A stretch of 64,000 bases of DNA from Streptomyces sp. NBC_01351 (lineage in GTDB: Bacteria; Actinomycetota; Actinomycetes; Streptomycetales; Streptomycetaceae): positions 2,232,001-2,296,000 of the forward strand of contig NZ_CP108356.1 in assembly GCF_036237315.1 (NCBI RefSeq), read 5' to 3'. The notes below the pieces were generated by a model. It made no database searches and had not been told where the DNA came from. It was given only the letters and a program-made list of their open reading frames with translations. The translations under genes and the position numbers were made by a program. Shown here in pieces: positions 41,815 to 49,891 of the stretch (positions within the stretch are counted from its first letter, which is position 1; each line of letters starts with the position of its first letter).

Positions 41815-43737
41815 TCATGGTCGGTACAAGGGGTTGGGTACGGTGCCGTGCTGCACGGCGTGCGGGCGGTCGGGGCGGTCGCGGTAACCGTCCTCATAGA
41901 GCCGGTTCCGGTTCAGGCAGAGCCGTCCGATGCTTTCGCCGAGCAGGTCGAAAAGCTCGTAGCGGTCCTTGAGCTCCGGGAAGCGGGCCTGGTGGCGGAC
42001 GATCTCCGCCCGGACGAGGGACCAGAACTCGGCCTCCGGGACGTCGAGCCGCTCCTCGCACAGGGCCGAGAGGTAGCGGAAGACTCCCACGAAGAGCCCG
42101 GAGTGGATGAACTGGGGCAGGAAGTCCGCGGGCTCGGTGAGCAGGACGGACCGGACCTCTTCGGGAAGCGAGGCCAGCTCGGGAAGGGGCTCGTCGGTGA
42201 TGTTGATGTCGTCCACGAAGTCCTTCACCGCCAGCCGGACGGGCACCTCGCGCTCGTCGAAGATCACGACGGTGTTCTCCCCGTGCGGCGAGAAGACGGT
42301 CCCGTAGCGGTAGAGGAAGTGGAGCAGCGGGGGCAGGACGGCGGCGAAGAGGTGCTGGAGCCAGACGGCCGGGGCCAGCCCGGACCGGGCGACGAGTTCC
42401 GCGGTGAAGGAACGTCCGCGCGGGTCGGTGTGGAGGAGCGAGGCGAGGGTACGGGCGCGCTCGCCGGGGGCGAGGCGGCCGGTCAGGGGCTCGCGCCAGA
42501 TCGCGCCGAGGAGCTCCTTGTACTGGTACGGGACCTCGGGCAGCTCGTCGTAGACGGGATGGCGGACGGTGACGGAGGCGACCTCGCCGAGCAGGATCAC
42601 CCCGCATTCGTCGCGGAGGAAGGGGTCGCCGTCACGGAGGGAGTGGATCCAGGCGGTGACGGCGGGGGCGGCGAGGGCCAGGTCGGAGGGCAGGCCGCGC
42701 CAGACCATGGTGTTGAAGACGGAGAGCGGCAGTTTGACGCTGTGCCGGTCGGGGCGCGTGAGGTTGAGGAAGGTGCGGATCGACTGCTGTGGCAGGCGCA
42801 CGTCCGGGTCGGCGGGGAGCGGGACGAGGGTGCCGGCGGCGAGGGCCGGAGCGAAGAGTGGGAGGACCACCTCGTCCCACTGCCAGGGGTGGACCGGGAA
42901 GTAGAGGTAGCCGAACGGGTCCAGTCCACGGTCGCGCAGGGTCTGGTCGAAGGCGGCGCGGGTGCCGGGGTCGAGCTCGGCGGAGTAGAGGCGGGCGGGG
43001 TCCTCCAGGCCCGCGGTGCCGCGGTAGACGGCGAGGGAGGTGTGGGCGGCGAGCCAGGGCAGCTGCTGGCGGGTGCGGGCCTCGGGTGCCCAGGCCGCGG
43101 TGTCGGAGGCGGAGAGACCGATGCGGCCCTTGTTGAGGACGAGCCAGGGGTGACCGGTCTGGTGGCCTTCGAGGGCGGCATAGTCGAGTTCCGCGAGGAC
43201 ATCGGCGGTGAGCGCGGTGTGGTCGATCCGGGCGTCTGCGGCGAGCGTGGCGCTGAGTTCGCGGACGAGGTGGCCGAGGGTCGCGCCGTCGAGGCCGAGG
43301 AGGGTGCGGGCGCGGATGAGGAAGGCGTACGGGTCCCCGAAGGCGATCGGCGGCTGGGTGGAGGGCGGCGCCGGGGTGAGGGTGATGCTGTCCGGGCCGA
43401 CGTGCCAGCTGCCGTAGGCGCGGCGGCGGGCCCGGAAGCCGAGGCTGCTGCCGTCGTCGAGGGTGAGGGTCCAGGCGTCACCGGCCCGGACAGGGGACGG
43501 GGCAGGGACGGCCGCTGAGACGGCGGCTGAGACGGGGACTGGGATTGAAACTAGGACTGGGACTGGGACTGGGCTGATGATCTCCTCGTAGGCGAACTCG
43601 GAGAGCATCTTCGCGAGCAGTCGGCGGGACGCGAAGTCCCAGGTCGGGCCGTTGAGTTCGGGTGGCGTACAGGGGTGCTGGGGCGAGGGAGGCACGGGCG
43701 GTTCGGTGGAGTCGGGGTCTGTGGGGAAGTTCGGCAC
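41815..43737 (-). CDS. NIS siderophore synthetase (IucA/IucC family), second of two
   Basis: 640 residues. The family is shown by LEGHQTGHP, PVHPWQWDEVV, SPHGENTVVIFDE and VKDFVDDINI, the residues that form the ATP and carboxylate pockets. It should ligate an amine to a citrate- or dicarboxylate-derived acid with ATP. The first 100 residues include a Val/Pro/Ile-rich insert (PVPVPVLVSIPVPVSAAV) absent from typical members. It is the last gene of a four-gene operon (gap 97 bases from the acyltransferase). Sub-type (A, B or C) needs a tree. Confidence 0.92.
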   Translation of the reverse strand: MPNFPTDPDSTEPPVPPSPQHPCTPPELNGPTWDFASRRLLAKMLSEFAYEEIISPVPVPVLVSIPVPVSAAVSAAVPAPSPVRAGDAWTLTLDDGSSLGFRARRRAYGSWHVGPDSITLTPAPPSTQPPIAFGDPYAFLIRARTLLGLDGATLGHLVRELSATLAADARIDHTALTADVLAELDYAALEGHQTGHPWLVLNKGRIGLSASDTAAWAPEARTRQQLPWLAAHTSLAVYRGTAGLEDPARLYSAELDPGTRAAFDQTLRDRGLDPFGYLYFPVHPWQWDEVVLPLFAPALAAGTLVPLPADPDVRLPQQSIRTFLNLTRPDRHSVKLPLSVFNTMVWRGLPSDLALAAPAVTAWIHSLRDGDPFLRDECGVILLGEVASVTVRHPVYDELPEVPYQYKELLGAIWREPLTGRLAPGERARTLASLLHTDPRGRSFTAELVARSGLAPAVWLQHLFAAVLPPLLHFLYRYGTVFSPHGENTVVIFDEREVPVRLAVKDFVDDINITDEPLPELASLPEEVRSVLLTEPADFLPQFIHSGLFVGVFRYLSALCEERLDVPEAEFWSLVRAEIVRHQARFPELKDRYELFDLLGESIGRLCLNRNRLYEDGYRDRPDRPHAVQHGTVPNPLYRP

Positions 43738-43834
43738 GGGTCTCCTCGGGGCTCGGGAACTTTGCCGCGTGGCGCGGAGTTTTCGAAGGGAGAGGTGCGA
43801 AGCGGCGGAACGGTCGGGGCCTGCGGGGCGGCAG

Positions 43835-44533
43835 TCAGAGGAGATTGCGCAGCGCCCGCTCCCGGATCATCAGGGCGGCTCGCTTCTCGGGAAGGTCGAT
43901 TTCCGCGAAACAGCGGAAACCCGAGCCCAGGAAGGCTGATACGGAGGGGGTGTTGCGAATGTCCGGTTCCGCGATGACGCGTGTGCAGCGAGGTCGGTTG
44001 TCGAGCACCAGGTCGGCGACGGCGCGCAGCAGCGTGGTGCCCAGGCCCCGGCCGCGGTTCGTGCCGTCTCCGATCAGCAGGTGGATACCCGTGTCGTGGG
44101 GGCGCGCCGGGTAGTACCGGGACAGCGGGTCGAGGTCGGCCCGGTAGATCTCCCAGTAGCTCATCGGCGTGCCGTCGAGGAGGCCGAGGCAGGGGATGCT
44201 GCGGCCGTCCCCGTCGAGTTGGGCCCGTAGGTGGGCCTCGGTGACGGCTGCGGGGCCGGCGAGTTCCCAGGAGGCGTCCACTTCGGGGTCGTTCATCCAG
44301 CCGGTCAGCAGCTCCAGGTCCCGGTCCGCTCGTACGGGTTCCAGGCGGAAGGCGCCGGCGGGGGTGTCGGTGCTGCCCCAGATCGCCGGGGAGTCGAGCA
44401 GGTCTGCCTCGGCGAGCAGGGGCAACAGGTCCACGGGGAGCCGTAGTTCGACGGTGTCGTCGATGGCGCGGAGGTTGCCGAACGCGCGGGTGGCGGAGCC
44501 GACGGGATCGGCGGGTGTTTCGGTGGAGGGCAT
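43835..44533 (-). CDS. GNAT N-acyltransferase of the siderophore operon
   Basis: 232 residues. The C-terminal domain (about 60-225) is a GNAT fold of the IucB/RhbD/AlcB type, with FRLEPVRADRDLELLTGWMN, PMSYWEIYRAD, the acetyl-CoA loop RGRGLGTTLLRAVADL, and GFRCFAEIDLPEKRAALM. Members acylate a hydroxylamine or amine during siderophore assembly. No hydroxylase is present in the operon, so the acceptor could be an unhydroxylated amine. 33 bases downstream of the longer synthetase gene. Confidence 0.9.
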   Translation of the reverse strand: MPSTETPADPVGSATRAFGNLRAIDDTVELRLPVDLLPLLAEADLLDSPAIWGSTDTPAGAFRLEPVRADRDLELLTGWMNDPEVDASWELAGPAAVTEAHLRAQLDGDGRSIPCLGLLDGTPMSYWEIYRADLDPLSRYYPARPHDTGIHLLIGDGTNRGRGLGTTLLRAVADLVLDNRPRCTRVIAEPDIRNTPSVSAFLGSGFRCFAEIDLPEKRAALMIRERALRNLL

Positions 44534-44566
44534 CAGGGGGCTCTTCTCCGTGTCAGCGCTGACGCG

Positions 44567-47023
44567 TCAATCGTGAAGGGGGTTGGCGATGGTGACGTAG
44601 ACGGACTGGGTGTCGACGGGGCCGACCAGCTCGTCGAGGCCGCCCAGGCGGGTGAGCAGGTTGGCCTTGCAGCGCAGGGTGGGTGAGTCGAGCAGCCGCG
44701 CAGGGAGCGGGCCGAGGTGGGCGGCCTTGCCGAGGAACCGGCGGAAGGCGGCGAGCAGTACGCGCTCGTCGGCGAGCCGTTGGGAACCGAAGGCGCCGAT
44801 GAGGCCGAGCACGTTGTTGATGCCGAGGTAGTAGGCGAAGCGTTCGTCGGTGACGGCGTCGGAGACGAAGGTGTCGCTGGCGCTGCCGATCCCGGGGAGC
44901 CGCTGCTCCAGTTCCGTGCGGCGGGATGCGCGGAAGTAGTAGCCCTGGTTGTCGCGGAATCGGCCGCCGACCGGCCAGCCGGCCGGGTCGAGGAGTACCA
45001 GGGTGTTCTGCTGGTGGGCTTCGAGGGCGATGCCGGCGAGCGCGTCGAAGGCGAGCACCGGCAGGACCACGTGGTCGAGGTAGCGCAGGAACCACTCGGC
45101 GGCGACGGCCGAGGTGGGACGTCCGGTGGTGGCGGCGAGGCGTGCGACGGTCTCGGCGAGCCGGGAGCTGAAGGTGGTCCGGCCGGGCCACGGGCGGGGA
45201 GCGGTCAGAGCGGCGACGCAGACGGCGTCGTCGGAGGAGCGGAAGGGGTTGTGGCGGAGCAGGGCGTCGAGTCCGGGGACGGGGGTGCCGTCCGGGGCGT
45301 CGACGGCGACCCAGGCCGGGTCGCGGACGATGTCGAAGCCGGGGTGGCCTGTCTGCCACTGCTCGGCAAGGCCGGTGCGGAGCAGCCGGTGCACCTCGAC
45401 GCCGCGGTGGAGTTCCTTGCGGAGGTTCTCGCGGCGGGAGTTGGTGATGCGAAGGCCCAGGGAGAGCTTGAGCATCGCGGGGGCGCCGGGGCGGTGGACG
45501 GTTCGTACGGAGGAGGTGGGGTACCAGGAGTCGCCGTGGGGGCCCAGGTTGTGCAGGAGTCCCGCGTCGAGGAGGGCGGCGACGGCGGGGCGCTGGAGCA
45601 GGTCGCGGGCCTGCCAGGGGTGAAGGGGCAAGGGGGTGGCACCATCGGGCACCGGAAGGCCGGGGGCGAGCCGGCCGAGGAGCTGGGCGGTGGAGACGGG
45701 GCGGCCTCGTTCGGTCCAGGCCGATTCCGTGGCGAGGGCGGAGGGTTCGACGGCGAACCAGTGCAGGGGGAAGGAGCCGTGCAGTTCGGGTGAGTAGCGG
45801 CGCACTTCGGTCTCGGAGAGCCCTTCGCGGCTCTTCGGGTCCGGCTGGAGGGGGTGGCCGAGGAGGAGGGACTGCTCGGCGGTGAGGAAGCGGTCCCCGC
45901 CCACGGGGGCCGGGGCGGTGGGGCGTTCGCGCCGGTCCGCGATGAACTCGGCGGTGCGGCGGACCGAGTCGGCCACGCGGGCCACGAGGTCGGCGGAACT
46001 GCGGTCGCTGTCGGCGGGGGTGCGGTTGCCTTCGCGGGCGAGGAGGGCCGCAAGGGTTACGGCGTCCAGCGCGGGCGCGGTGGTGGGCGCGGCTTCCAGT
46101 CGCGCCGGGCCGAAGCGGTGCCAGCCCGCCGGGGACCAGTAGCGGACGGCGACGAGCAGGGCCGCGCCGGAAGCGGGCAGGGGGATGCGCAACCGGGTCC
46201 CCGTCGGACCGTCGGGCCGGCGGAGTCCGGCTTCGCGAACCCAGCAGCGGAGCAGGTTCTCGACGGCCGCGGCCTCGGCGGCGACCGCCGGGTCCGGGTG
46301 GTCCAGGAGCTCGGGCGGCCCGGCCGGCTCCGACCGGGTGAAGTCGCTCCGGCTCGTGCGGGGCGGGGCCGTGCCGTCCTTCTGCCGCGGCACTGTGGTC
46401 GCCGCGGGGACCTCCGCCGCCGGTGCCCGTCGGTGCGGGTCGCCGATGGTCGCGTACGACCCGTCGGCCCCGGCCGCGGACTCGGCGGGCGTGGCCCAGG
46501 GTTGGGCGGCCTCGGGGGGGTTACCCCACGGGGTGGCGAACCCGGGGGGTGCGATCTCGGGCTGGGCCGGCTCAGGGGGTGTGGCCCACGGGTTGGCGGG
46601 CTCGTTCGCCGGAGCCGACGGCTGCGCGGGTTCCGCTGGTCGGGCCGACGGCTGCGCGGCTTGCCCCGGCTGCACGCTCTCCGTGGGGGCGGTCCACGGC
46701 GATCCCGGCTGCGCCGACCGGGCCAGTGTCGGCGCCGTTTCACCCGGGGCGGTCCCCGGCCGCGCTTGCTCCGCCGGCTGGGCCGGGGGCTGCGCGCTCT
46801 CCGTGATTGCGGTCCGCGGCGGCGCGGGCTCGACTGGCCGGGCATGAGGCGGCGCGGTCTCCCAAGGGCCGGGGCCGGGGGTCTGCGGTGACGGCGGCTG
46901 CCCCGTGGGGGCGGAGGGATGGTGCTGCGCCGTGGGTGTTGGTGTGGCGGGCGTTGGGGGCAGGAGCCGGCTCTCGTCGCCGCCGGGGCCGGGAGTCGGG
47001 GTGGCATGGTGCGCGTCGGGCAT
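44567..47023 (-). CDS. NIS siderophore synthetase (IucA/IucC family), with long Pro/Ala-rich N-terminus
   Basis: 818 residues, about 200 longer than usual. Residues 1-240 are low-complexity, with repeated PAEPAQP- and PAESA-like units and little predicted structure. From about 245 on it is an IucA/IucC protein: LLLGHPLQPDPKSREGL (with Gln where HPxHP normally has His), PLHPWQ, LKLSLGLRITNSRREN, and ALEAHQQNTLVLLD. It is the second gene of the operon, 21 bases after the aminotransferase. The long N-terminus is compositionally in frame with GC bias, so it is probably translated, but a downstream start is also possible. Confidence 0.9.
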   Translation of the reverse strand: MPDAHHATPTPGPGGDESRLLPPTPATPTPTAQHHPSAPTGQPPSPQTPGPGPWETAPPHARPVEPAPPRTAITESAQPPAQPAEQARPGTAPGETAPTLARSAQPGSPWTAPTESVQPGQAAQPSARPAEPAQPSAPANEPANPWATPPEPAQPEIAPPGFATPWGNPPEAAQPWATPAESAAGADGSYATIGDPHRRAPAAEVPAATTVPRQKDGTAPPRTSRSDFTRSEPAGPPELLDHPDPAVAAEAAAVENLLRCWVREAGLRRPDGPTGTRLRIPLPASGAALLVAVRYWSPAGWHRFGPARLEAAPTTAPALDAVTLAALLAREGNRTPADSDRSSADLVARVADSVRRTAEFIADRRERPTAPAPVGGDRFLTAEQSLLLGHPLQPDPKSREGLSETEVRRYSPELHGSFPLHWFAVEPSALATESAWTERGRPVSTAQLLGRLAPGLPVPDGATPLPLHPWQARDLLQRPAVAALLDAGLLHNLGPHGDSWYPTSSVRTVHRPGAPAMLKLSLGLRITNSRRENLRKELHRGVEVHRLLRTGLAEQWQTGHPGFDIVRDPAWVAVDAPDGTPVPGLDALLRHNPFRSSDDAVCVAALTAPRPWPGRTTFSSRLAETVARLAATTGRPTSAVAAEWFLRYLDHVVLPVLAFDALAGIALEAHQQNTLVLLDPAGWPVGGRFRDNQGYYFRASRRTELEQRLPGIGSASDTFVSDAVTDERFAYYLGINNVLGLIGAFGSQRLADERVLLAAFRRFLGKAAHLGPLPARLLDSPTLRCKANLLTRLGGLDELVGPVDTQSVYVTIANPLHD

Positions 47024-47044
47024 CGCGGGTCCTCGGGGTACGGG

Positions 47045-48520
47045 TCAGTGGGGCTGGCGGGCGGCTGCCGGGATGGCGTCGGCCAGGCGGTCGAGGACCG
47101 CCGCGGCCTGCTCGTCGGTCAGGGTCAGCGGGGGTAGCAGGCGGACGACAGCGGAGTGGCGGCCGCCGAGTTCGACGATCAGCCCGCGGTCCAGGCACTC
47201 CTGGCGGACGGCCGCGGCGAGGGCGGGGGCGCAGGCTCCGGTGTCGGGGTCGACGAGTTCGACGCCGATCATCAGGCCGCGGCCCCGTACGTCCCCGATG
47301 CAGGGGTGAGCGGAGGCGAGGCCGCGCAGGGCCGTGAGCATCCGCTCGCCCAGGGCGGCGGCGCGCTCGGCGAGACGGTGCTCGCGGACGTAGGCGAGGG
47401 TGGCGGTGCCGGCCGCCATGGCCAGCTGGTTGCCCCGAAAGGTGCCGGCGTGCGCGCCGGGAGCCCAGACGTCCAGGCTCGCCCGGTACACGATCACCGC
47501 GAGCGGCAGGCTGCCGCCGATCGCCTTGGACAGGACGAGTACGTCGGGCACCACCCCGGCGTGGTCCACCCCCCAGAAGGCGCCGGTCCGACCGACCCCC
47601 GTCTGCACCTCGTCCGCGATCAGTGGGATCCCCCGCGCCTGGGTGATCTCGCGCATCCGGCGCAACCAGGCGTCGGGGGCCGGGAGGACCCCGCCCTCAC
47701 CCTGGACGGGTTCGATGATCATCCCGGCGGGTGCGGGGACCCCGCCCTTGGGGTCGTCCAGGAGGTTCTCCGTCCAGCGGGCGCCGAGTTCGGCACCCTC
47801 GACACCGCCGACGCCGAACGGGCAGCGGAAGTCCTGCGGGTACGGGAGCCGGGTCACCCGTACGTCCGCGGCTCCGCCCGAGGCGTCCAGGGCTCCGGCG
47901 GTCATCCCGTGGTAGGCACCCGTGAAGGCGAGCAGCCCGGAACGCCCCGTCGCGGTGCGGACCAGTTTGAGGGCCGCCTCCACCGCGTCCGTGCCGGCCG
48001 GTCCGCAGAACTGGATCCGGGCGTCGGCGGCCAGGGCGGGCGGCAGATTGGCGAAGAGCTCGGTGGTGAACGCGTCCTTGACCGGGGTCGCGAGGTCCAG
48101 CACGTGTAGCGGAGCCCCGGAGTCGAGGATGCCCCGGATGGCTTCCAACACCACGGGGTGGTTGTGCCCGAGGGCGAGGGTGCCGGCACCGGAGAGGCAG
48201 TCGAGGTAGCGCCGTCCGTCGGCGCCCTCGATGGTCAGGCCGCGGGCGCGCACCGGGACGATGGGCAGGGAGCGCGCGTACGTCCGTGCGGCGGACTCCC
48301 GTTGGGCCTGCCTGCGCAGGATGCCGTCGGCGGCGCCGGGGGTCCGCCGTGGCCGACTGCCCTGGGGCGGCACCTGTGCCACGGATGACGCGTCCACGGA
48401 CACGGACACGGACGCGGAAGCGACGGACGCGGACGCCGACGCGTCCACCGCCGGCTCGGTCAAAGCCACGAGTGTCGGACCTCCCACACTGATTGCTCTT
48501 CCGGATTGCGCCTCGAACAT
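47045..48520 (-). CDS. Diaminobutyrate--2-oxoglutarate aminotransferase (siderophore type)
   Basis: 491 residues from ATG 48520 with GGGAGC upstream. A class-III PLP aminotransferase: GTDAVEAALKLVRTATGR, FTGAYHGMTAGALDASGG, the VLVLSKAIGGSLPLAV lysine, and a HAGTFRGNQLAM tail of the active site. It converts aspartate semialdehyde (with glutamate) to L-2,4-diaminobutyrate, as does RhbA in rhizobactin synthesis. The N-terminus has a Ser/Ala/Val repeat (SASASVASASVSVSV). It begins the operon. There is no decarboxylase gene next to it. Confidence 0.88.
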   Translation of the reverse strand: MFEAQSGRAISVGGPTLVALTEPAVDASASASVASASVSVSVDASSVAQVPPQGSRPRRTPGAADGILRRQAQRESAARTYARSLPIVPVRARGLTIEGADGRRYLDCLSGAGTLALGHNHPVVLEAIRGILDSGAPLHVLDLATPVKDAFTTELFANLPPALAADARIQFCGPAGTDAVEAALKLVRTATGRSGLLAFTGAYHGMTAGALDASGGAADVRVTRLPYPQDFRCPFGVGGVEGAELGARWTENLLDDPKGGVPAPAGMIIEPVQGEGGVLPAPDAWLRRMREITQARGIPLIADEVQTGVGRTGAFWGVDHAGVVPDVLVLSKAIGGSLPLAVIVYRASLDVWAPGAHAGTFRGNQLAMAAGTATLAYVREHRLAERAAALGERMLTALRGLASAHPCIGDVRGRGLMIGVELVDPDTGACAPALAAAVRQECLDRGLIVELGGRHSAVVRLLPPLTLTDEQAAAVLDRLADAIPAAARQPH

Positions 48521-48721
48521 CAACGCTGCTCCCCCATCCCCCGTACGTACCAACGACGGTGACGGCGGCGGATCACGGGTGGGCCCAAGATCCTTGCCCT
48601 TCGAGGGGCGAGACACCCCGGCGAGTCAGGAACCACGGCCCCGGGCTGTGCCGTCCCCAACGTCGGCGGCATAGTGGGTTGCTGCACTCGACGCCTCGAA
48701 TCCACCAGGGGGACGAACGAC

Positions 48722-49891
48722 ATGCGACCGAACCGACCGGTCACCGCGCTGCTGTGCGCGGCCGCGCTCGCGCTGACCGCCGCGGCCTGCGGCCCCGGCG
48801 ACGATCAGGCCGGCGGCGACGCCAAGCCGACCGTGGCACAGAGCAGTCCGGGCACGGGCGGGATCAAGATCCCGGACCAGCTCAAGGACAAGCTCAAGGA
48901 GCACGGCATCGACCTGGAGAAGTGGAAGGGGGGCGAGTGGAAGAACTGGAAGAAGGAGGACTGGCTCCGCGAGGCGGGCGACTACATCAACCCGATCATC
49001 GAGGGCCTGTGGGACCCCGACCGCATGCGTGATGCCGAGCAGCCGAAGCCGCCCTCCGTGGACCCGGACGCGGGCAAGGACCAGGGCGTCACCGACCCGA
49101 CCCCGGCGCCGGTGGCCGCCAAGCCGGCGACCCCGCCCTACCACCAGAGCGTTCCGGCTTCCGGCAAGGTCTTCTTCGACGGGCCCGAGGGTTCGATGGT
49201 CTGCTCGGCGACCGTGATCAAGGACCCGGCGCACCCCGGCAAGTCCAACATGGTGTGGACGGCCGGCCACTGCGTGCACGCGGGCAAGTCCGGTGGCTGG
49301 TACCGCAACATCGCGTTCGTCCCGTCCTACAACAACGCGGGCAAGCCGGCCGCGCAGCTCAAGGGCGCGCCCCGGGAGCAGGTGGCTCCGTACGGCGTGT
49401 GGTGGAGCGACTGGGCGCAGACCTCCGACCAGTGGATCGCGACCGGCGGTCCGACCGGCGGTGCGGGTGCCCCGTTCGACTTCGCGGTGCTGCACGTGAC
49501 CCCCGAGCAGGGCAGCGGCAAGTCGCTCGAGGAGACGGTCGGTTCGGCGCTTCCGGTGGAGTTCAACGCTCCGGCGGTGCCGAAGGTCGCGAACATCACC
49601 GCGACCGGCTACCCGGCTGCGGCCCCCTTCGACGGCCAGAAGGCCTACCAGTGCGCTGACAAGCCGGGGCGGCTGTCGCTGAACTCGACGGACCCGGTGA
49701 TGTACCGCATCGGCTGCACCATGACCGGCGGTTCCTCCGGCGGCGGCTGGGTCGCGGCGGGTGCCGACGGCAAGCCGGCGCTGGTGTCGAACACCTCGAT
49801 CGGCCCGGCCAAGGCGGGCTGGCTGGCCGGACCCCGTCTGGGCCCGGAGGCGAAGGGCATCTTCGACGCCGTGAGCGCCAAGTTCAAGTAG
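48722..49891 (+). CDS. Exported trypsin-like serine peptidase
   Basis: 389 residues from ATG 48722 with GGGGGA upstream. An N-terminal signal (residues 1-28) ends LALTAAACGPGDD; the cysteine resembles a lipobox but -3 is Ala, so lipid anchoring is uncertain. A charged helical segment follows (KDKLKEHGIDLEKWKGGEWKN), then the peptidase domain with catalytic His (TAGHCVH), Asp (FDFAVLHV) and Ser (GGSSGGGW). This order and motifs are those of the glutamyl-endopeptidase-like S1 group. It is divergent from the siderophore operon. Strong terminator downstream. Confidence 0.85.
   Translation: MRPNRPVTALLCAAALALTAAACGPGDDQAGGDAKPTVAQSSPGTGGIKIPDQLKDKLKEHGIDLEKWKGGEWKNWKKEDWLREAGDYINPIIEGLWDPDRMRDAEQPKPPSVDPDAGKDQGVTDPTPAPVAAKPATPPYHQSVPASGKVFFDGPEGSMVCSATVIKDPAHPGKSNMVWTAGHCVHAGKSGGWYRNIAFVPSYNNAGKPAAQLKGAPREQVAPYGVWWSDWAQTSDQWIATGGPTGGAGAPFDFAVLHVTPEQGSGKSLEETVGSALPVEFNAPAVPKVANITATGYPAAAPFDGQKAYQCADKPGRLSLNSTDPVMYRIGCTMTGGSSGGGWVAAGADGKPALVSNTSIGPAKAGWLAGPRLGPEAKGIFDAVSAKFK

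Follow-up and report, generated by a model that had tools for sequence, protein, structure and literature searches.

Two distant loci of Streptomyces sp. NBC_01351 as probable halves of a schizokinen-type siderophore pathway

Introduction

What can a siderophore operon make when genes for its building block are missing beside it? The question is raised by four genes of Streptomyces sp. NBC_01351 (assembly GCF_036237315.1), here called A, C, D, and F, which lie in a stretch of 64,000 nucleotides (contig NZ_CP108356.1, positions 2,232,001 to 2,296,000; hereafter the window, in whose own numbering the positions below are given). The contig is the largest of the genome (8.46 of 8.9 Mb). The initial annotation, made from the sequence alone, saw in these genes an operon for a siderophore independent of nonribosomal peptide synthetases (NIS), a near-match to the rhizobactin genes rhbA, C, D, and F that lacked the decarboxylase RhbB and the N-hydroxylase RhbE. 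It proposed an amino-carboxylate product built on diaminobutyrate itself or, as a fallback, dependence on enzymes elsewhere. We argue here that the fallback is the better reading: the operon is likely to supply A, C, D, and F to a NIS pathway of the schizokinen/rhizobactin type, for which a two-gene operon 4.0 Mb away, B-E, would supply the rest.

Results

The four genes of the operon

All four genes are on the minus strand. Gene A (open reading frame, ORF, at 47045..48616) encodes an RhbA-like diaminobutyrate-2-oxoglutarate aminotransferase (TIGR00709: 479.8 bits, cut-off 401.6), with 52-57% identity to the A proteins of the Halobacterium and Picosynechococcus clusters and 53% to that of S. 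meliloti; its likely start is the ATG at 48520, preceded by a GGGAG stretch. Gene C (44567..47023) encodes an RhbC-like IucA/IucC synthetase and gene D (43835..44533) an RhbD-like GNAT acyltransferase (PF13523: 160.8 bits), with identities of 38-45% and 37-41%, respectively, to their counterparts in the reference clusters of Halobacterium, Picosynechococcus 7002, and Rhodococcus pSID, the last having no diaminobutyrate aminotransferase annotated beside it. Gene F (41815..43737) encodes a second IucA/IucC synthetase, RhbF-like, with 44-47% identity to reference-cluster F and 33% to the strain's own DesD. The Pfam matches of the operon proteins are well above cut-off, their identities to the S. 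meliloti pSymA counterparts are 39-53%, and, among the proteins compared, each has its nearest match in the A, C, D, or F protein of the known clusters and not in a desferrioxamine enzyme. The synthetase trees place the window's C and F with the C and F proteins of schizokinen/rhizobactin-type clusters, and in the F tree a 100/100 split sets the DesD/DfoC rows apart; by identities and trees the two synthetases are of the RhbC and RhbF kinds and not of the DesD type. Nor are they of the staphyloferrin B type (SbnF model: 181 bits, cut-off 900; SbnC model: 52 bits, cut-off 700). The gene content and the likeness to rhbA, C, D, and F that had been read from the sequence are confirmed.

From 48616 down to 41815 the order is A-C-D-F, and the gaps of 21 (A/C), 33 (C/D), and 97 bases (D/F) make a single operon plausible. 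The true start of C is uncertain: its first ~200 residues (46400-47023) are rich in Pro and Ala and the codon-position bias there is weak, so that the ORF may begin too far upstream or the protein may carry a disordered tail.

The distant decarboxylase and hydroxylase

No match to the PF00282 decarboxylases or the PF13434 hydroxylases was found within the 64-kb window, so the reported absence of B and E holds for the window and its flanks. It does not hold for the genome. Searched as a whole for pyridoxal-phosphate decarboxylases and flavin-dependent N-hydroxylases, a step the initial annotation had suggested, the genome gave six PF00282 decarboxylases and 10 PF13434 matches, of which four are strong (E-value ≤ 1e-107) and six weak (E-value ≥ 1.5e-8), the weak ones being probably other flavoproteins. 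Only two adjacent decarboxylase/hydroxylase pairs exist: desAB at 5.45 Mb, and B-E at C1:6280098-6283018 (L020:6099-9019), 4.0 Mb from the operon. B has 504 residues and E 469, their ORFs overlap by 4 bases, and the pair stands between pepN (PF01433) before and a pyruvate kinase gene (PF00224) after.

We reconstructed gene trees from 25 B proteins (one B row dropped) and 27 E proteins. Streptomyces B proteins from the pepN/pyruvate-kinase place group with the B proteins of three one-locus Streptomyces clusters (100/100), and four further one-locus cluster B proteins are sister to them (93/89). For E, the proteins from the same place fall inside a 21-row clade of actinobacterial cluster E proteins (100/99), in which the nearest sister is not resolved (69/40) except for the E of the E-F locus in genome G182 (100/99). 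The outgroups, DesA/DfoJ and DesB/DfoA, separated at 100/100 in both trees; long branches were flagged for Smel_rhbE, Hbact_E, Synech_E, and Pant_dfoA in the E tree and for Smel_rhbB in the B tree. By the first and the third of these clades, enzymes of the RhbB and RhbE kinds are present in the genome. At positions where three desferrioxamine-type proteins share one residue and four schizokinen-type proteins share another, B matches the schizokinen type at 2/3 and E at 5/6, numbers too few to weigh.

Co-occurrence across Streptomyces

A B search of the genome collection, which reaches close relatives only, found 53 loci, and E was adjacent to B in 53/53. Matches to A, C, D, and F of the window were absent from the flanks of all 53 (up to 10 kb, some shorter). 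We matched pepN in 46/53 loci, all seven misses being cut by contig ends, and pyruvate kinase in 48/53, with four of the five misses cut in the same way and the fifth being L080. A further 20 stretches contained 19 real loci (15 from genomes without a full F), with B beside E in 19/19. F was found at no less than 66% identity in 27 of the 33 genomes, out of the 53, that were searched for it; the others had one fragment, one relative of 48% identity, and four no match.

Among 199 Streptomyces genomes, F was detected in 111 at an E-value ≤ 1e-115, of which seven were fragments or distant relatives, leaving 104. An orthologue of E is near-core, occurring in 180/199 at the threshold of E-value ≤ 1e-160 (no genome had its best match between 1.9e-153 and 7.5e-170). 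E was present in 97/104 genomes with F and in 83/95 without a full F (P = 0.23), and a presence-absence tie between F and E was rejected. This speaks against a simple dependence of F on E, and we therefore examined the loci between dinG and hflX, the genes that flank the operon, in 76 of the 95 F-negative genomes (the 19 left out being mostly poorer assemblies) and in four F-positive genomes without E.

The tie is that of C and D with E. The 69 E-positive F-negative genomes contained A-C-D (59), C-D (8), A-C (1), or none of these genes (1); the seven E-negative ones contained none (5), A alone (1), or C-D (1: G132, a draft of ~1020 contigs). C was thus present in 68/69 E-positive vs. 1/7 E-negative genomes (Fisher's exact test: P = 2.2e-7), and D in 67/69 vs. 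1/7, or in 67/69 vs. 5/11 with the four F-positive genomes included (P = 3.8e-5). Mapped on a DinG/HflX tree, C and E change five times each, and the independent lineages in which both were lost number about four (G060 with G165; G163 with G175; G125; G045). These surveys indicate that a split A-C-D(-F) plus B-E arrangement is present in many species of Streptomyces.

Genomes without F

Most of the F-negative genomes examined retain A-C-D plus B-E. Of 120 residues common to all four reference C proteins, C keeps a median of 97.5% (68 F-negative genomes; lowest 77% in G084, next 94%). G206, a close relative, has ~70 bases from D to dinG and no F between. C-terminal remnants of F stand next to dinG in L199 (G045) and L201 (G057), which suggests a loss of F in these genomes and not an original absence. 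A-C-D plus B-E looks, from its sequences, like a working set with one synthetase, possibly yielding a one-armed citrate amide, or possibly helped by another synthetase.

S. coelicolor may contain this version. SCO5799-SCO5801 comprise three genes, an aminotransferase first and then siderophore genes, where the window has four, and presumably stand at the same place, next to lexA/dinG. From this layout, rather than from the S. coelicolor sequence itself, we infer that they are A-C-D without F. A bolder proposal, possible but in our view doubtful, is that F-lacking Streptomyces make a dedicated one-armed citrate hydroxamate (citryl-N-acyl-N-hydroxydiaminopropane) outside DmdR iron-box control, and F-positive species the two-armed form. 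Such a metallophore is not yet described from F-lacking Streptomyces and, if the proposal is true, would be the hidden product of SCO5799-SCO5801, a locus named merely as putatively siderophore-related in the S. coelicolor literature (PMC7324645 and PMC3224560, in their accessible parts).

Regulation

The initial annotation had reported no IdeR/DmdR-like palindrome before 48520, and this stands: the DmdR iron-box pattern gave 0 sites within three mismatches in the window and a perfect site at the genome's own des cluster, which served as control. With that control working and both enzyme families missing from the window, the observation that prompted this analysis was right. An iron-box profile built from this genome gave a best score of -9 bits in 48400-48760 vs. 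37 bits at des, and no iron box was found before A or before B in this genome. In relatives, 56 leaders of A yielded one score of 18 bits (L291) and two of 6.5-7.0 bits, the rest being lower, and 73 leaders of B (one of them erroneously 11 kb long) a best score of 8.8 bits; random stretches reach 5.1 bits at the 99th percentile and 7.9 at maximum. The leaders of relatives carry few iron boxes or none. No Zur-like box was found in the leaders of the two loci of this genome (best 7 mismatches of 15).

The leader of A (48521..48673, minus strand), examined also in an alignment of five relatives, lies between A and a divergent secreted-protease-like gene. An inverted repeat of 11 bases (CAAG-GAT-CTTG, 48586-48596) lies in it, 66 bases upstream of the likely A start. 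Of 59 leaders of A, 37 contain AAGGATCTT, and a different block, GGCGGTTACC, stands before B in 28/70 leaders. Co-regulation of the operon and the B-E locus, a point raised by the initial annotation, was sought by sequence, and none was found.

Expression in S. coelicolor agrees with control outside the iron-box regulon. In a table of PMC3610822, transcripts of SCO5799 and SCO5801 were detected and were up at 48 and 72 h (log2 1.3 to 1.8), when the desferrioxamine gene SCO2782 was at -3.7 and -3.2 and the listed coelichelin genes were down; at 24 h, SCO5799, SCO5801, SCO2782, and the listed coelichelin genes were all up. Against such control, over-expression of SCO3201 is reported to lower all three siderophore loci together (PMC7324645).

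Neighbouring genes and further loci

The operon is bordered by dinG on one side and by the divergent secreted-protease-like gene, then hflX, on the other. The protease-like protein has no Pfam match and was named by its sequence, as was hflX.

Three other loci of the genome carry related families. A third strong PF13523 GNAT (166 bits), at G000:C1:2584181-2586814, is ~2.2 kb from an iron-box-like site (two mismatches). A third NIS locus, at G000:C1:438850-442774 (L022:4851-8775), has two short divergent IucA/IucC genes (513 and 515 aa) and then a methyltransferase gene. A PF00282 decarboxylase at G000:C1:7840659-7844384 (L026:2660-6385) is upstream of a class-III aminotransferase that we take, from its sequence, to resemble EctB; the two could possibly be a second source or a user of diaminobutyrate.

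Discussion

The proposed pathway

We favour an N-hydroxy-1,3-diaminopropane citrate siderophore because a B-E pair of the right clades is in the genome and because C and D are tied to E. In this pathway, A would convert aspartate semialdehyde to diaminobutyrate, B (as an L-2,4-diaminobutyrate decarboxylase) would convert diaminobutyrate to 1,3-diaminopropane, and E (as a 1,3-diaminopropane N-hydroxylase) would convert that to N-hydroxydiaminopropane; D would then form a hydroxamate by acylating the hydroxylamine, after which C and F would join two of these arms to citrate. Where F is present, the product would be schizokinen or a near relative or acyl variant. The route is carried over, by analogy, from the six-enzyme scheme proposed for Haloferax volcanii. 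Gene content, orthology class, the wide conservation of both loci, and the presence-absence tie of E with C and D are what the sequences indicate; what we infer is every substrate, which acyl group is used, in which order C and F act, and the product with its export and uptake.

Alternative readings

Could the operon work alone, joining citrate with diaminobutyrate, free or acylated, into a non-hydroxamate metallophore, while B-E serves another core function? E occurs in 83/95 F-negative genomes and is thus untied to F, and no co-regulation signal links the two loci, as this reading would have it. Three things make it unlikely: the near-constant company of C (68/69) and D (67/69) in E-positive F-negative genomes together with coinciding losses of C and E, the nature of D as a PF13523 GNAT most similar to RhbD-type enzymes, which act alongside an N-hydroxylase, and the position of B and E in clades of NIS-cluster enzymes. 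The idea that diaminobutyrate itself is the building block of an amino-carboxylate product consequently finds no support, being opposed both by a phylogenetically right B-E pair 4.0 Mb off and by an E gene that accompanies C and D of the operon across the genomes examined.

We consider it very unlikely that the hydroxylated arm comes from DesA/DesB (cadaverine), giving an arthrobactin-like product, or from the decarboxylase at 5.60 or 7.84 Mb. DesA and DesB are both present, belong to the same families as B and E, and would provide an iron signal through the iron-box control of des, but gene A would yield diaminobutyrate, no cadaverine precursor, and C and F fall in diaminopropane-cluster clades, not with DesD. 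Neither of the decarboxylases at 5.60 and 7.84 Mb has a PF13434 match at its side, and their scores with the RhbB model are far lower (113 and 112 bits). That the operon is a silent or decaying relic seems extremely unlikely to us, even though it lacks an iron box and many genomes have no F or only a remnant of it: A, D, and F are near full-length at 63-91% identity in seven F-positive relatives (A not found in G201), the invariant residues of C are kept in F-negative genomes, and S. coelicolor has detectable transcripts of SCO5799 and SCO5801 (PMC3610822).

Several observations weigh against the split pathway that we prefer, in addition to a near-core E that is untied to F. With the NCBIfam RhbB equivalog model, the strain's own DesA scores 413 bits, higher than B (294), and both are under the cut-off of 900; the NCBIfam models were unable to separate B and E from DesA and DesB. 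Counts of 8-10-mers found no motif shared between the sequences before A and B, and neither is preceded by an iron box. On the DinG/HflX tree, only three well-supported independent pairs differ in C, so that a tree-corrected test of C and E cannot reach significance (sign test: P = 0.25 at best); all three pairs differ in E in the same way in 127/200 pairings, and in the remaining 73/200 two do and one shows no difference. Seven F-positive genomes are below the E threshold (G043, G074, G103, G227, G083, G114, and G147). The first four, whose loci were fetched, keep A-C-D-F, and their best E matches (6.6e-123 to 3e-151) would fit, by score, an E of another clade. Finally, A was not found at the locus in 9/69 E-positive F-negative genomes.

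If the split pathway is true, the missing chemistry is located and the product becomes predictable, and cluster mining that expects one locus would misread the pathway in many Streptomyces species. That F is often missing while the other genes are retained also raises the question of a one-synthetase product and its metal. A published account of the split pathway was not found in the open literature, most subscription papers being outside the reach of that search. In the accessible parts of the sources, schizokinen was reported by liquid chromatography-mass spectrometry (LC-MS) in S. anulatus RLA103 and assigned to a gene cluster (PMC11865988), and tentatively or putatively, again by LC-MS and with a cluster assigned, in S. 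mutomycini SL02 and Streptomyces sp. SL03 (PMC13136089); whether these clusters are split is not stated there. For S. tricolor HM10, the same kinds of genes (transaminase, IucA/IucC, FhuF-like, and GNAT) were taken for a catechol pathway (PMC9268400, accessible part), and a schizokinen-like siderophore was suggested for an Arthrobacter cluster with relatives of RhbB, E, D, and F/C (PMC3534580, accessible part).

Comparison with known systems

Other Streptomyces have one-locus A-B-C-E-F clusters (L302, L303, L305-L308, and L310), which, unlike the split set, contain no D match; their C was identified with the Rhodococcus C protein. These clusters hold the closest B (47-60%) and E (53-54%) found outside the present locus, except for the E of G182 (65%). 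L303 (G123), the single cluster examined for both features, has a gene for a major facilitator superfamily (MFS) transporter separating E from F, and its F is followed by a glutamine-synthetase-like gene. A glutamine-synthetase-like gene is likewise present at the E-F locus of G182 (L304). In loci of these types, such a ligase could join a carboxylate to the hydroxylamine in place of the GNAT, judging from gene content.

The desferrioxamine cluster desABCD shares with the split set the decarboxylase, hydroxylase, GNAT, and NIS synthetase families. It differs in being one locus with a perfect iron box, and its decarboxylase, hydroxylase, and synthetase fall in separate clades. The rhizobactin 1021 genes rhbABCDEF on S. 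meliloti pSymA are a matching A-F set (38-53% identity) at a single locus, whereas here A-C-D-F and B-E are 4.0 Mb apart; in the rhizobactin product, one acetyl is replaced by an unsaturated fatty acyl (PMC6562677, accessible part). In Haloferax volcanii, the six-enzyme schizokinen route was proposed from bioinformatics, and a quadruple iuc deletion abolishes siderophore production (PMC7407949, accessible part). Its genes HVO_B0041-46 form one operon induced by iron starvation (same source), whereas in the present strain B-E is 4.0 Mb away and no iron box was seen; the H. volcanii and Halobacterium sets share the same six enzyme classes with the split set. Halobacterium NRC-1 (pNRC200) carries A-B-C-D-E-F in one run, and the window has the same order minus B and E.

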